From the NCBI GenBank assembly GCA_903863905.1, contig CAIPDT010000138.1, positions 1 through 60,511 of the forward strand: DNA of 60,511 nt, read 5' to 3'. Below are positions 53,205-56,096 of the stretch, one piece after another. Origin of the DNA: an uncultured Methylococcaceae bacterium (GTDB lineage: Bacteria; Pseudomonadota; Gammaproteobacteria; Methylococcales; Methylomonadaceae). The notes under the pieces are model-generated. The model was given only the letters and a program-made list of their open reading frames with translations. It was not told where the DNA came from and did not search any database. The first letter of the stretch is position 1. The number at the start of each line of letters is the position of its first letter. Both the position numbers and the translations under genes were made by a program.

Positions 53205-53235
53205 ACTAATTGCTTAAGCTTATCTTTTAGGTCTT

Positions 53236-53275
53236 TGGTATGATACTGTCATTCGACCTGCTTAAGCGATCGAAT
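53236..53275 (+). promoter_or_regulatory. Candidate extended -10 promoter with nested palindrome, upstream of bufferin-type operon
   Basis: An extended -10 element TGGTATGAT lies at 53236-53244; a good -35 hexamer at 17 nt is not evident, as is common for extended -10 promoters. Seven nt downstream begins a nested palindrome: ATTCGA (53251-53256) and TCGAAT (53270-53275) flank the perfect GCTTAAGC (53260-53267). The same GCTTAAGC occurs at 53212-53219. These could be an operator or a leader hairpin. Regulator unknown. Confidence 0.45.
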
Positions 53276-53302: not shown

Positions 53303-53740
53303 ATGAAAAAAATCAACAAATCACCTTTAGCAGTCGCTATGGGAGCAGCTTTAATTTCAACTTTTGCAACAGCAACCGCTAATGCAGAAGCAAACCCTTT
53401 TGGTATGACTGAATTATCAACGGGCTATATGCAAGTCGCTGAAGCGGCCAAAACAGCTGAAATGGCTTGCGGCGCATCCATGAATATGGCAAAACCTAAA
53501 ACACCAGAAGGCGCGTGTGCAGGTACTACAAAAGCAGCAGGCACTGCATCAAAAACGACTGAAGGCTCTTGTGGCGACATGATGAAAGACGGCAAGATGA
53601 AACCCGGTATGGAAGCCGCTTGTGGTGCTATGATGAAAGGCAAAGAAGGCGCTTGTGGCGAGATGATGAAAGGCGAATCAATGAAAGGTAAAGAAGGCGC
53701 TTGTGGAGCAGAAATGCACCCAGCAACACCTGCTAAATAA
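53303..53740 (+). CDS. bufA: Bufferin/HvfA-type RiPP precursor with Sec signal and EGACG repeats
   Basis: The product is 145 residues from the ATG at 53303, which has GGGAG 6 nt upstream; an in-frame TTG twelve nt earlier is less likely. It begins with a Sec signal peptide (basic N-terminus, LAVAMGAALISTFATATANA, cleavage about residue 28), unusual for a RiPP precursor but normal for this class. Six cysteines lie in EGACG-like motifs: Cys56, Cys72, Cys90, Cys107, Cys118 and Cys134, spaced 11-18 residues apart in a Lys/Met/Gly-rich low-complexity chain (CGAMMKGKEGACGEMMKG). The following DUF692 and DUF2063 genes match the enzymes that modify such cysteines. The mature protein may bind copper; modification is inference. 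Confidence 0.88.
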   Translation: MKKINKSPLAVAMGAALISTFATATANAEANPFGMTELSTGYMQVAEAAKTAEMACGASMNMAKPKTPEGACAGTTKAAGTASKTTEGSCGDMMKDGKMKPGMEAACGAMMKGKEGACGEMMKGESMKGKEGACGAEMHPATPAK

Positions 53741-53759
53741 GATTTACCCTTGTTAGGTA

Positions 53760-53792
53760 GGAGGGCAGACAATGCCCTCCCATTTCAATTTT
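53760..53792 (+). terminator. Attenuator-like hairpin between precursor and modifying enzyme
   Basis: An 8-bp perfect GC-rich stem, GGAGGGCA (53760-53767) with TGCCCTCC (53773-53780), closes on GACAA and runs into CATTTCAATTTT. It sits between the precursor and the DUF692 gene. A partial terminator there would give more precursor than enzyme, as is common in RiPP operons. Confidence 0.6.
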
Positions 53793-53812
53793 ATGACTCA
53801 AAAGGTGTTCTT

Positions 53813-54664
53813 ATGGACACAAACCCATTTCTAGTTCAAGGGGCAGGCCTAGGCCTTAGAAGGCCTCTTATTCATCAATTTCTTGAAACCCAACCCCAAG
53901 AAGTTGGATTTTATGAAATAGCCCCCGAAAATTGGATCACCATTGGCGGCAAATATGGCAAAGCCTTTAGAGCGATGACCGAACGCTTCGACTTTATTTG
54001 TCATGGCCTCTCTTTATCACTGGGCAGCACCGATCCTTTAGACGAACACTTTATTCTGGCCGTAAAACACTTTATGGCAGAACATCAAATTAAGTTTTAC
54101 AGCGAACACTTAAGCTATTGCAGTAAAAATGGTCATTTATATGACTTGATGCCCATCCCTTTTACCTCAGAAGCGGTCACTCATGTTGCTAAACGCATTA
54201 AGCGTGTGCAAGATATTTTGGAGCAACCCATTGCGCTTGAAAATGTCTCTTACTATGCCGCACCCGGCCAAGAAATGACAGAAATTGATTTTTTTAATGC
54301 CGTCGTTGAAGAAGCCGACTGTAATATCTTAATCGACCTTAATAATATTTACGTTAATAGCGTCAACCATCGATATGATGCTGATGCCTTTTTAAAAGCG
54401 ATACCCGCTCATCGTATTGCTTACGCACATATTGCCGGACATTATCAAGAAGCCGAAGATTTTTTAGTGGATACTCATGGGGCAGATATTATCGATCCCG
54501 TCTGGAAACTGTTAGGCAAGGCTTACGAACTGTATGGTGTGTTTCCGACTCTCTTAGAGCGTGATTTTAATTTACCCCCCATCGCTGACTTACTTAAAGA
54601 AGTGAATACCATTAAGACCATGCAAGTTGCATGGCAAACTCAGCATGAAAAACGTTATGCCTAA
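53813..54664 (+). CDS. bufB: DUF692 multinuclear non-heme iron oxygenase (BufB/HvfB/MbnB family)
   Basis: The 283-residue enzyme begins MDTNPFLVQGAGLGLRRP, with AAAGGTG just upstream; the open frame reaches 63 nt further back but into the attenuator region. The TIM-barrel MNIO family pattern is clear: GLGLRRPLIHQFLE, VGFYEIAPENWI, CHGLSLSLGS, EHLSYC, ENVSYYA, LIDLNNIYVNSVNH, YAHIAGH and LERDFNLP, whose His, Asp, Asn and Glu residues bind the iron cluster. Members such as MbnB, TglH and the bufferin enzyme oxidise peptide cysteines to heterocycles or cleave them. It follows the precursor gene. Confidence 0.93.
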   Translation: MDTNPFLVQGAGLGLRRPLIHQFLETQPQEVGFYEIAPENWITIGGKYGKAFRAMTERFDFICHGLSLSLGSTDPLDEHFILAVKHFMAEHQIKFYSEHLSYCSKNGHLYDLMPIPFTSEAVTHVAKRIKRVQDILEQPIALENVSYYAAPGQEMTEIDFFNAVVEEADCNILIDLNNIYVNSVNHRYDADAFLKAIPAHRIAYAHIAGHYQEAEDFLVDTHGADIIDPVWKLLGKAYELYGVFPTLLERDFNLPPIADLLKEVNTIKTMQVAWQTQHEKRYA

Positions 54665-55430
54665 CTCCAACTCACCGAACCGCGTTGACTTTAAAACAAA
54701 GCAAGCCGAATTTGCCGCTTATATCAGAGACCCTGAGCACAACCCCATACCCTCTGATGTACAAGAACCCCGTATGCGAATGTATAGAGAGTTATTTTTT
54801 AATAACATTGAAACGTTCTTATCGGGTAACTTTCCGGTACTGAGACAACTGCTAGATAACGACCAATGGCTAGAATTAACGCAAGATTTTTTTGCTACAC
54901 ACGCCTGTGAATCGCCACATTTCTCTGAAATACCTGAAGAGTTTTTAAACTATTTAGAAAATGAGCGTAAGTGCACAACAGACCTACCGTTTTTATTAGA
55001 ACTGGCACACTATGAATGGGTTGAAATGGCGCTATCCATAGCGAAAGAAGAACTACACACGGCGTTATCCGCACAGGATGTTCTTAAAAACACACCTTTA
55101 AGTGTGTCTCCACTAGCATGGCACCTAGTCTATGAATATCCTGTCCATAAAATATCACCCCACCATATCCCTTTAGAGACACCGACACAGCCAACATTTT
55201 TAATCGTCTATCGTGACCCTAACGATGAAGTACATTTTATTGAAATTACGGGGATGACCTATCGCTTACTTGAAATTATTCAAGCACACGAAACATGTTT
55301 GGCAGAAACCTGCTTAAAACAAGTGACTGAAGAAATGCAACACCCTAATACAGAAATAGTCTTTGCCGGTGGCTTACAGATTTTACAAGACTTAGTTAAA
55401 AAGACGATTTTAATAGCATCAACTCATTAA
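54657..55430 (+). CDS. bufC: DUF2063 partner protein (BufC/HvfC)
   Basis: The protein is about 257 residues starting MPNSNSPNRVDFKTKQ; an ATG 12 nt upstream is equally possible, and either start overlaps the stop of the DUF692 gene by 8-20 nt, so it is translationally coupled. The N-terminal DUF2063 domain (QAEFAAYIRDPEHNPIP, RMRMYRELFFNNIETFLSGNFPVL) matches the partner proteins that bind the precursor leader and assist the MNIO enzyme. The C-terminal part is a beta-rich recognition-like domain. It completes the three-gene bufABC/hvfABC order; no DoxX (HvfD) gene follows. Confidence 0.9.
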   Translation: MPNSNSPNRVDFKTKQAEFAAYIRDPEHNPIPSDVQEPRMRMYRELFFNNIETFLSGNFPVLRQLLDNDQWLELTQDFFATHACESPHFSEIPEEFLNYLENERKCTTDLPFLLELAHYEWVEMALSIAKEELHTALSAQDVLKNTPLSVSPLAWHLVYEYPVHKISPHHIPLETPTQPTFLIVYRDPNDEVHFIEITGMTYRLLEIIQAHETCLAETCLKQVTEEMQHPNTEIVFAGGLQILQDLVKKTILIASTH

Positions 55431-55536: not shown

Positions 55537-56031
55537 TTAGAATAATTTATTAAAGAAACCGTCTTCTTTTTTAGCGGATTCAGGTTTTTGATACACCGTA
55601 AAACCTTTACTTATCGGTTGTTGCTGCGCGCAATGGTAAGCAGCGCTATTAAACTTGATTTGCAAAGAACGCGGATTTTCGTGCTCAGAAAGGTATTTTT
55701 CAACCTCTTCATCCGTTAAATCTTTTAGCATAAAAGTAGTGACACACTCGCAAGACTTAGTAAAACGTTCGGTATCCTCTTCTTTATTAACCGAATTCTT
55801 TGTCTCTCTGGCCACACATTGTGCCGCGAAAGCATCATGAAACTTATGTTTTTCTGTTGCGGTTACCGGCTCATCTTTAGAATGATCAAAGGGATTAAAC
55901 ACCGTTTTAACCGCCGCCTTGCTTTCAACTTTGTCTTTATTAGAATCCGAGCAACCTGTCAAAGAGAGTGCAAAAATTGAACTGGTTAACACGGCAAAAA
56001 ATAAGTTTTTAGTCACGCTATGTATTTTCAT
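55537..56031 (-). CDS. Cys-containing lipoprotein, unknown function
   Basis: From the ATG at 56031 the product is 164 residues; two in-frame ATGs upstream are also possible and none has a strong ribosome site. A signal peptide ends in the lipobox ALSLTGCSD, so the mature Cys is lipidated. The soluble part contains four more Cys in the pattern QCVARE, then SCECV, then HCAQQ, together with an acidic middle (KDLTDEEVEKYLSEHENP). Paired disulfides are likely in the periplasm. It is convergent with the bufferin-type operon, 106 nt away. Family not recognised. Confidence 0.75.
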   Translation of the reverse strand: MKIHSVTKNLFFAVLTSSIFALSLTGCSDSNKDKVESKAAVKTVFNPFDHSKDEPVTATEKHKFHDAFAAQCVARETKNSVNKEEDTERFTKSCECVTTFMLKDLTDEEVEKYLSEHENPRSLQIKFNSAAYHCAQQQPISKGFTVYQKPESAKKEDGFFNKLF

Positions 56032-56096
56032 AAATTTCATCGCAAAGGTTAAAAAGCTCAAGGCTTGCTAATCAGACCTTGAATTTATCACTAAAG

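Follow-up and report, generated by a model that had tools for sequence, protein, structure and literature searches.

A probable HvfABC-type operon encoding a lysine-less, methionine-flanked precursor peptide in a Methylococcales methanotroph

How copper is managed for methane monooxygenase in gammaproteobacterial methanotrophs is, to our knowledge, still open. MNIO-PME1 clusters (MNIO, multinuclear iron oxygenase) of all kinds occur in about half of Pseudomonadota reference genomes (PMC13097082). In the oxazolin (HvfABC) system, a precursor with a Sec signal and six target cysteines in three AEGKCGEGKCG motifs is encoded with an MNIO, a DUF2063 partner carrying a RiPP recognition element (RRE; RiPP, ribosomally synthesised and post-translationally modified peptide) and a DoxX-like protein, HvfX (PMC13419390, PMC13097082). 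Fontiphorin-type (captophorin) chemistry converts cysteine to 5-thiooxazole and gives a copper-binding product (PMC13097082). Bufferins help growth under copper stress (PMC12452194), and the mmrABC cluster of the Microbulbifer copper chelator bulbicupramide is obligately conserved within one genus (PMC12538549). Here we describe an operon at 53303-55430 of a window of 60,511 nucleotides, the whole stretch analysed (contig CAIPDT010000138.1, here C138, of assembly GCA_903863905.1, an uncultured Methylococcaceae bacterium). We assign it with good confidence to the HvfABC (oxazolin/captophorin) type in a Methylococcales methanotroph; its exported peptide would carry cysteines converted to thiooxazoles and would bind copper.

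The operon comprises three genes on the forward strand. The hvfA-like precursor gene (53303..53740, +; ATG at 53303, stop ending at 53740) encodes 145 residues, hvfB (53813..54664, +) a 283-residue MNIO-type RiPP maturase and hvfC (54645..55430, +) a 261-residue DUF2063/RRE partner; with the ATG starts that we chose for the latter two genes, hvfB and hvfC overlap by 20 nt. HvfB scores 439.4 bits against NCBIfam NF003818 (cut-off 360), matches Pfam PF05114 (DUF692) at E 1.6e-105 and has PDB 3bww as its closest solved relative (E 1.7e-72). HvfC scores 307 bits against NF050145 (cut-off 142) and matches PF09836 (DUF2063, E 1.3e-24) and PF22106 (E 3.5e-30), with PDB 3dee as a solved relative (E 5e-12). 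An initial annotation, made from the letters alone, had read here a precursor followed by DUF692 and overlapping DUF2063 genes, and both the Pfam matches and the coordinates bear this out. Since HvfB and HvfC pass the curated cut-offs and relatives keep the gene order, its HvfABC-type RiPP operon also stands. Its other label, bufferin, does not apply in the strict sense and was rejected: the enzyme reaches 267 bits against BufB where 310 are required, and the precursor has no DUF2282 match. As to Buf2, the precursor matches nothing in NCBIfam or Pfam, whose holding of a Buf2 model was unchecked. Methanobactin was rejected as well, the enzyme scoring 44 bits against the MbnB model TIGR04159 (cut-off 325).

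The host genome is a draft of 2.79 Mb in 179 contigs. It holds a single MNIO gene and a single DUF2063 gene, both in the operon, and a search with the precursor profile returned one matching place. The nearest named relatives, among the matches listed, are uncultured Methylococcaceae, Methylobacter and Crenothrix.

The precursor begins with a Sec-like signal (residues 1-28: KK, a hydrophobic stretch and an ANA-EA boundary, judged by eye), followed by the conserved stretch NPFGMTELSTGYMQVA, which can also be given as NPF..L..GYMQVA. Its cysteines, at positions 56, 72, 90, 107, 118 and 134 (spacings 16, 18, 17, 11 and 16), stand in the contexts EMACG, EGACA, EGSCG, EAACG, EGACG and EGACG. All six fit E-x-[A/S]-C-[G/A]: the preceding residue is Ala or Ser and in no case Lys, and the following residue is Gly at five and Ala at one (Cys 72). 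Glu at position -3 of every Cys is more than chance would give, because 200,000 random reorderings of the non-Cys residues never reached all six. A Met-Met pair comes after Cys 90, 107 and 118, and 13 Met lie among the final 99 residues. The initial annotation's 145-residue, Sec-exported, six-cysteine protein is thus recovered as an open reading frame (its signal by eye), as are its EGACG/EGSCG/EAACG-type motifs with double Met after several cysteines (three of six). At E up to 1 the precursor had no family match in NCBIfam or Pfam, DUF2282 included; it found no credible match among solved structures and none in a plasmid search, and Rfam gave one sub-threshold match within the hvfA coding sequence, which we take as chance. 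Structure prediction from 34 sequences returned a mean pLDDT of only 50.7 and a pTM of 0.17, so that no fold is claimed.

Gene order among relatives supports the assignment. The comparison covers at least 112 enzyme loci, L001 and L002 included (at least 110 among the matches listed); 97 have different enzyme genes, and the counts of 97 loci and 74 precursors rest on this set. In 95 of the 97 loci hvfC lies directly behind hvfB; of the two exceptions, the sequence of L064 stops 436 nt past the enzyme and L079 offers 3000 nt without a match. A precursor was found within 900 nt in front of the enzyme in 74. Among the remainder, a contig end truncates L006 and L091, and in L064 a precursor-like frame lies about 1.3 kb ahead, beyond the 900-nt search. 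Of the 68 precursor loci whose sequence extends more than 400 nt ahead of the precursor, 58 have the neighbouring nth gene, mostly upstream and in the same orientation (on the other strand in six), so the operon's chromosomal place appears to be old. With a precursor profile, 49 of 61 near relatives gave a match, among them 38 of the 44 of good quality. In three loci (L057, L064 and L080) a frame with a DoxX-like part, recognised by eye, occupies the usual precursor position upstream of hvfB. G015 has hvfA twice; the additional copy, which follows an nth copy at the end of a contig, is probably an assembly duplicate and was set aside.

The curated HvfA precursor models NF050137 and NF050188 describe KCGExKCG repeats. 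At E up to 0.1, they match 16 and 15, respectively, of 34 wider precursors chosen from the 74, and neither matches any of 12 chosen close precursors (own included; 11 without Lys before Cys). A family search of the precursor for DUF2282-like or EGKCG-type members, proposed in the initial annotation, found neither directly; about half of the 34 wider relatives do match HvfA. Precursors with and without Lys-Cys form one family in one gene order. By gene order, N-terminal stretch and these intermediates, the window precursor is placed in the HvfA family, outside the curated precursor definition.

The Lys-less state changes with the relatedness of the enzyme. Where enzyme identity is at least 79.5% (30 loci), the residue before Cys is Lys in 6% and Ala or Ser in 86%; at 74.5-79.5% (32 loci) the figures are 26% and 57%, and below 74.5% (12 loci) 42% and 34%. 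Labelled by Lys-Cys content, the 74 precursors divide into 31 with none, 29 with few and 14 with many. The surrounding frame does not change in this way. Glu stands at -3 in 94% and a small residue at +1 in 99% of the Ala/Ser-Cys sites of the 74 precursors (n = 343), and in 96% and 99% of the Lys-Cys sites (n = 109); the other Cys sites (n = 74) show 50% and 89%. Because this frame is shared, Ala/Ser-Cys and Lys-Cys appear to be sites of one kind. That Lys-less precursors arose only once is not supported: the enzyme tree, with 31 of 97 rows Lys-less, needs 10 changes, so that the state would have arisen or been lost repeatedly. The tree was a quick one with 41 of 93 inner branches open, and the label included L026 (precursor cut by a contig start) and L014 (two Cys). 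The window falls within an all-Lys-less group of 14 rows (support 93) and in a starred group of four (support 98). In Methylotuvimicrobium buryatense 5G (L036) the operon's precursor is of the Lys-Cys type. The contrast with EGKCG that had been drawn for this precursor is therefore real, and it belongs to a clade and not to one sequence; the claim that the number and spacing of its cysteines are particular to it does not hold, since six Cys occur in 37 of the 74 precursors (own included) and the same arrangement recurs in close orthologues.

Selection on the precursor was estimated from a chosen set of 17 close orthologues as pooled dN/dS, which is 0.151 across residues 1-28, 0.026 across 29-48, 0.18 across 49-86 and 0.031 across 87-135. 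The stretch behind the signal is thus as constrained as the Cys core, as would suit recognition there by HvfC. Each of the six Cys is conserved across the 17 orthologues (one row has a gap at Cys 134) with codons varying between TGT and TGC, contrary to the loss of Cys motifs in orthologous loci that the initial annotation had named as grounds for doubt. All 17 retain the double Met 93/94 and 110/111, while 16 retain Met 121 and 14 retain Met 122. On these sequence comparisons, the orthologues' Cys and most of the double Met are under purifying selection.

Several observations weigh against the assignment. They can be summarised as (i) the precursor has no match to NF050137 or NF050188 at E up to 1; (ii) no DoxX gene was found in the operon; (iii) the precursor of L014 has only two Cys and that of L004 only five, the numbers in precursors without six ranging from 2 (L014) to 14, which contradicts a strict pattern; (iv) the window's own hvfA-hvfB gap folds with moderate stability (z = -1.5); (v) a search for pmoA missed it in the own genome, which we do not take as absence because this genome is a draft of 179 contigs. 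A DoxX partner elsewhere was considered and none is convincing: the genome's two DoxX matches are barely above the Pfam cut-off (26.6 and 24.6 bits against 23.6), and both lie within one 1217-residue frame away from the operon. The two-Cys precursor of L014 (2536-2901) retains many Met and the N-terminal stretch; a sequence error is possible there.

The enzyme argues for the HvfABC assignment. The active-site residues named for the Lys-Cys class in FonB are R15, R16, D249 and F250 (PMC13097082). They correspond to R16, R17, D251 and F252 of HvfB by the LRR and ERDF motifs, a correspondence drawn by motif only, FonB itself lying outside the alignment. Every one of the 97 enzyme rows, own included, has R16, R17 and D251, and 96 have F252. 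FonBC processes a substrate with EAACGEGACG; it refuses Pro and requires Gly or Ala after Cys, the single exception being LVHCY, which is modified once (PMC13097082). That substrate has nearly the same motifs as the window precursor, whose sites satisfy the FonBC rules: no Pro, Gly or Ala after Cys, and Ala before Cys, which is tolerated. By this analogy, formation of thiooxazoles at the precursor's cysteines is likely.

Two elements precede hvfA and one follows it. The extended -10-like string GTCTTTGGTATGATA (53231..53245, +) matches once in the window and, by its conservation, would be the hvfA promoter. Such a string lies upstream of hvfA in 37 of 72 loci, at 54-57 nt before the start codon in 31 and at 82-100 nt in six, its variants having been picked after the sequences were viewed. 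A generic sigma-70 scan missed it and found 3 sites against 5.3 in shuffles; the generic scan for terminator-like sites found 7 against 2.5. The sole other exact GTCTTTGGTATGATA in the own genome is taken as coincidence because it lies within an exbB-like coding frame (L134 is the same gene in a relative), and a regulon defined by the string was rejected. Around the promoter GCTTAAGC occurs twice (53212-53219 and 53260-53267), the second copy inside the inverted repeat described below; no other precursor locus has it within 170 nt upstream of hvfA.

The inverted repeat ATTCGA-N13-TCGAAT (53251..53275, +) lies in the expected 5' leader of the mRNA and could be an operator or a 5' hairpin. Among 30 loci chosen by the -10 string and a short leader, 29 have the arms TTCGA/TCGAA, spaced by 13 nt in 25, by 12 in three and by 14 in one. 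The sixth arm position covaries (T-A 19, C-G 5, T-G 4, C-A 1), and exact ATTCGA-N12/13-TCGAAT is present in 24. Across eight genomes the exact repeat occurs at 7 places, of which six precede hvfA (two in G015) and one lies elsewhere (G019), with none in two genomes; the reversed control pattern gives 6. The repeat as the mark of a regulon was rejected on this comparison: it marks hvfA, and no regulon is visible. Whether it serves as the operator of a dedicated repressor and not as an RNA hairpin is evenly balanced. Its nearly invariant arms, near-fixed spacing, variable centre and patchy inner pairing look like the site of a dimeric protein, and it is located just behind the expected transcription start. 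Against an operator stand the covariation of the sixth arm position, as in a stem, the lack of a regulator gene in the operon and the want of a wider regulon among those places.

Between hvfA and hvfB a hairpin (53760..53780, +) has a perfect 8-bp stem, GGAGGGCA/TGCCCTCC, and a weakly T-rich tail. Of 66 loci with hvfA-hvfB gaps of 30-200 nt, 55 have a gap that folds more stably than its dinucleotide shuffles (z < -2), as against 1 of 74 control stretches of 90 nt inside hvfB. The element is likely a partial terminator or an mRNA-stabilising hairpin. Downstream, a putative lipoprotein gene (55537-56061, -) is convergent with hvfC; it has no family above cut-off in NCBIfam or Pfam, and such a gene lies near the enzyme in 34 of the 97 loci.

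Gene order, families, conservation, selection, hairpin and inverted repeat are read directly from the DNA; modification of the precursor and its copper binding would follow by analogy with characterised relatives (PMC13097082, PMC12538549, PMC13419390). We propose that the precursor is made with a Sec signal and that HvfC would recognise its N-terminal part, that is, the signal together with the NPF..L..GYMQVA stretch; HvfA lacking the signal is poorly modified (PMC13419390). HvfB, as a diiron enzyme, would oxidise each of the six Cys to a 5-thiooxazole with loss of four hydrogens, and Glu at -3, a small residue at +1 and Ala or Ser for Lys at -1 would fit the known tolerance of the enzyme class. 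The modified and largely unstructured peptide would be exported and would bind Cu(I) in the periplasm through its thiooxazole sulfurs, probably with help from the neighbouring Met-Met thioethers, and would buffer copper in a host that would be handling much of it. The hairpin after hvfA would allow an excess of precursor over enzymes. Recognition, export, the part played by Met and regulation are steps that we infer; the system might also supply copper for methane oxidation.

The distribution of the enzyme bears on that role. In a sample of the order drawn evenly from genomes at least 90% complete, HvfB was found at E <= 1e-90 in 189 of 201 genomes and 47 of 48 genera. Of the 12 misses, ten belong to a single genus, g8, and make up its whole draw (G041, G047, G052, G055, G058, G087, G091, G095, G099 and G103); five of these have, among the matches listed, MNIO enzymes of 34-41% identity instead. 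In a phylum-wide draw the looser E <= 1e-60 gave HvfB in 41 of 299 genomes, own genome included, a difference that partly reflects kinship because the query is a methanotroph protein. We searched 35 genomes for the marker pmoA and detected it in 27 (for the other members of the own genus, in 18 of 21), which identifies the group as methanotrophs.

Precursors also occur apart from the enzyme. Twenty-three loci lack a precursor in the 900 nt before the enzyme; for 20 of them (L006, L069 and L091 excepted) the whole genome was searched, together with one control, which was found. Nineteen of the 20 have a precursor match elsewhere at E <= 0.01; the genome of L075 has none. Judged by contig number, the detached precursors lie on other contigs than the enzyme, except for one in L058 on the same contig about 41 kb away, and by our count of places 11 of the 20 genomes have at least two precursor genes. 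This suggests, as far as genome positions can, maturation in trans; stand-alone and tandem precursors are already known in bufferins (PMC12452194). In Methyloprofundus-type relatives, precursors of 227-255 residues lie away from hvfBC behind a sucD-like gene (L151:1108-1842 (-), L152:1501-2184 and L153:1501-2268) and have long Met-rich stretches, for example GMQGM and GGMKRM. A second Methyloprofundus type with EGKCG-like motifs lies beside mgtE- and mraZ-like genes (these gene names and sucD by eye), and several freshwater relatives have two precursors in tandem.

These data allow a different role for the same chemistry, in which the Cys are modified as in captophorins and the peptide supplies or stores copper for particulate methane monooxygenase instead of protecting the cell. 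HvfB is near-universal in an order whose hallmark is a copper enzyme, as the pmoA count reflects; the own draft genome has one MNIO and hence no separate methanobactin enzyme to be seen there, and some methanotrophs have stand-alone and multiple precursors. Yet excess metal induces the characterised systems, which are thought to act by sequestering it (PMC13097082), the operon has no transport or receptor gene linked to it, and g8 lacks a close HvfB in 10 of 10 genomes although pmoA was found in G041, one of two searched (not in G047). We regard the supply role as rather unlikely on balance. More speculative still is the idea that a near-universal thiooxazole-peptide system serves Methylococcales as a periplasmic copper reservoir for methane oxidation, in the place taken by methanobactin in other methanotrophs, and in which a Methylobacter-like branch would have built Lys-less, Met-flanked Cu(I) sites of thiooxazole and thioether; we hold it tentatively, as a doubtful proposition. 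Improbable is a precursor whose Ala/Ser-Cys sites are not, or not all, converted, leaving a partly unmodified Cys/Met-rich copper binder with thiooxazoles at some sites: it would suit the absence of Lys before any Cys, the Ala in place of Gly after Cys 72, the Met-rich precursor and the long Met-rich stretches of L151-L153, but the Glu -3/small +1 frame is that of Lys-Cys sites, the enzyme retains the class residues, and FonBC accepts Ala both before and after Cys (PMC13097082).

With thiooxazole formation by HvfBC as the preferred reading, an operon whose enzyme spans the order is a candidate for copper management in methanotrophs. Its natural precursor variants (Lys-less, Met-flanked, two-Cys and Met-expanded) make ligand rules testable, and the culturable M. 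buryatense 5G is suited to the question of role. Current family models overlook the Lys-less precursors. Among the open-licence titles and abstract beginnings listed, no paper on the operon in methanotrophs was found, and EGACG was not found in the open-licence captophorin, EGKCG and bulbicupramide literature among the matches listed, supplements lying outside the scope of both searches. Hundreds of unclassified small Cys precursors precede enzymes of the same large cluster (PMC12452194), and the present type may already be counted among them.

Set beside the described systems, the locus shares with the oxazolins the Sec-signal precursor, MNIO, DUF2063/RRE partner and six target Cys, and it differs in having no Lys before Cys, wider and irregular spacing, Met-Met after three Cys, no DoxX and no match to the HvfA models. 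With fontiphorin it shares the enzyme-class residues, by motif, and the motif EAACGEGACG that FonBC accepts; natural fontiphorin has Lys-Cys repeats (EGKCG/EAKCG), unlike the window precursor (PMC13097082). The absence of Lys alone is not new, because the Lys-less NVCGG and LVHCY are listed among common natural 5-mers (PMC13097082); we found no E-G-[A/S]-C-G core with Met-Met among the motifs of its main text, which uses neither "methionine" nor "Met-rich". Bulbicupramide, a copper chelator as the present product would be, resembles it in having a conserved cluster, mmrABC, with no protease gene nearby (PMC12538549), but it has EGKCG repeats and is described from one genus, whereas here the enzyme is order-wide and the precursor motifs vary. 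The bufferins Buf1 and Buf2 have a signal peptide, an MNIO and a DUF2063 partner in common with the present operon; Buf1 is a DUF2282 protein with four Cys and Buf2 has 6 or 12 (PMC12452194). The heterocycle of methanobactin is an oxazolone-thioamide, different from a thiooxazole (PMC13097082). MbnABC, found in other methanotrophs, has only a distantly related MNIO, as the 44 bits to MbnB indicate. Methanobactin precursors are short, unlike the long Sec-exported precursor here. The window precursor is an unusual, Lys-less and Met-flanked variant of a recently described peptide class.

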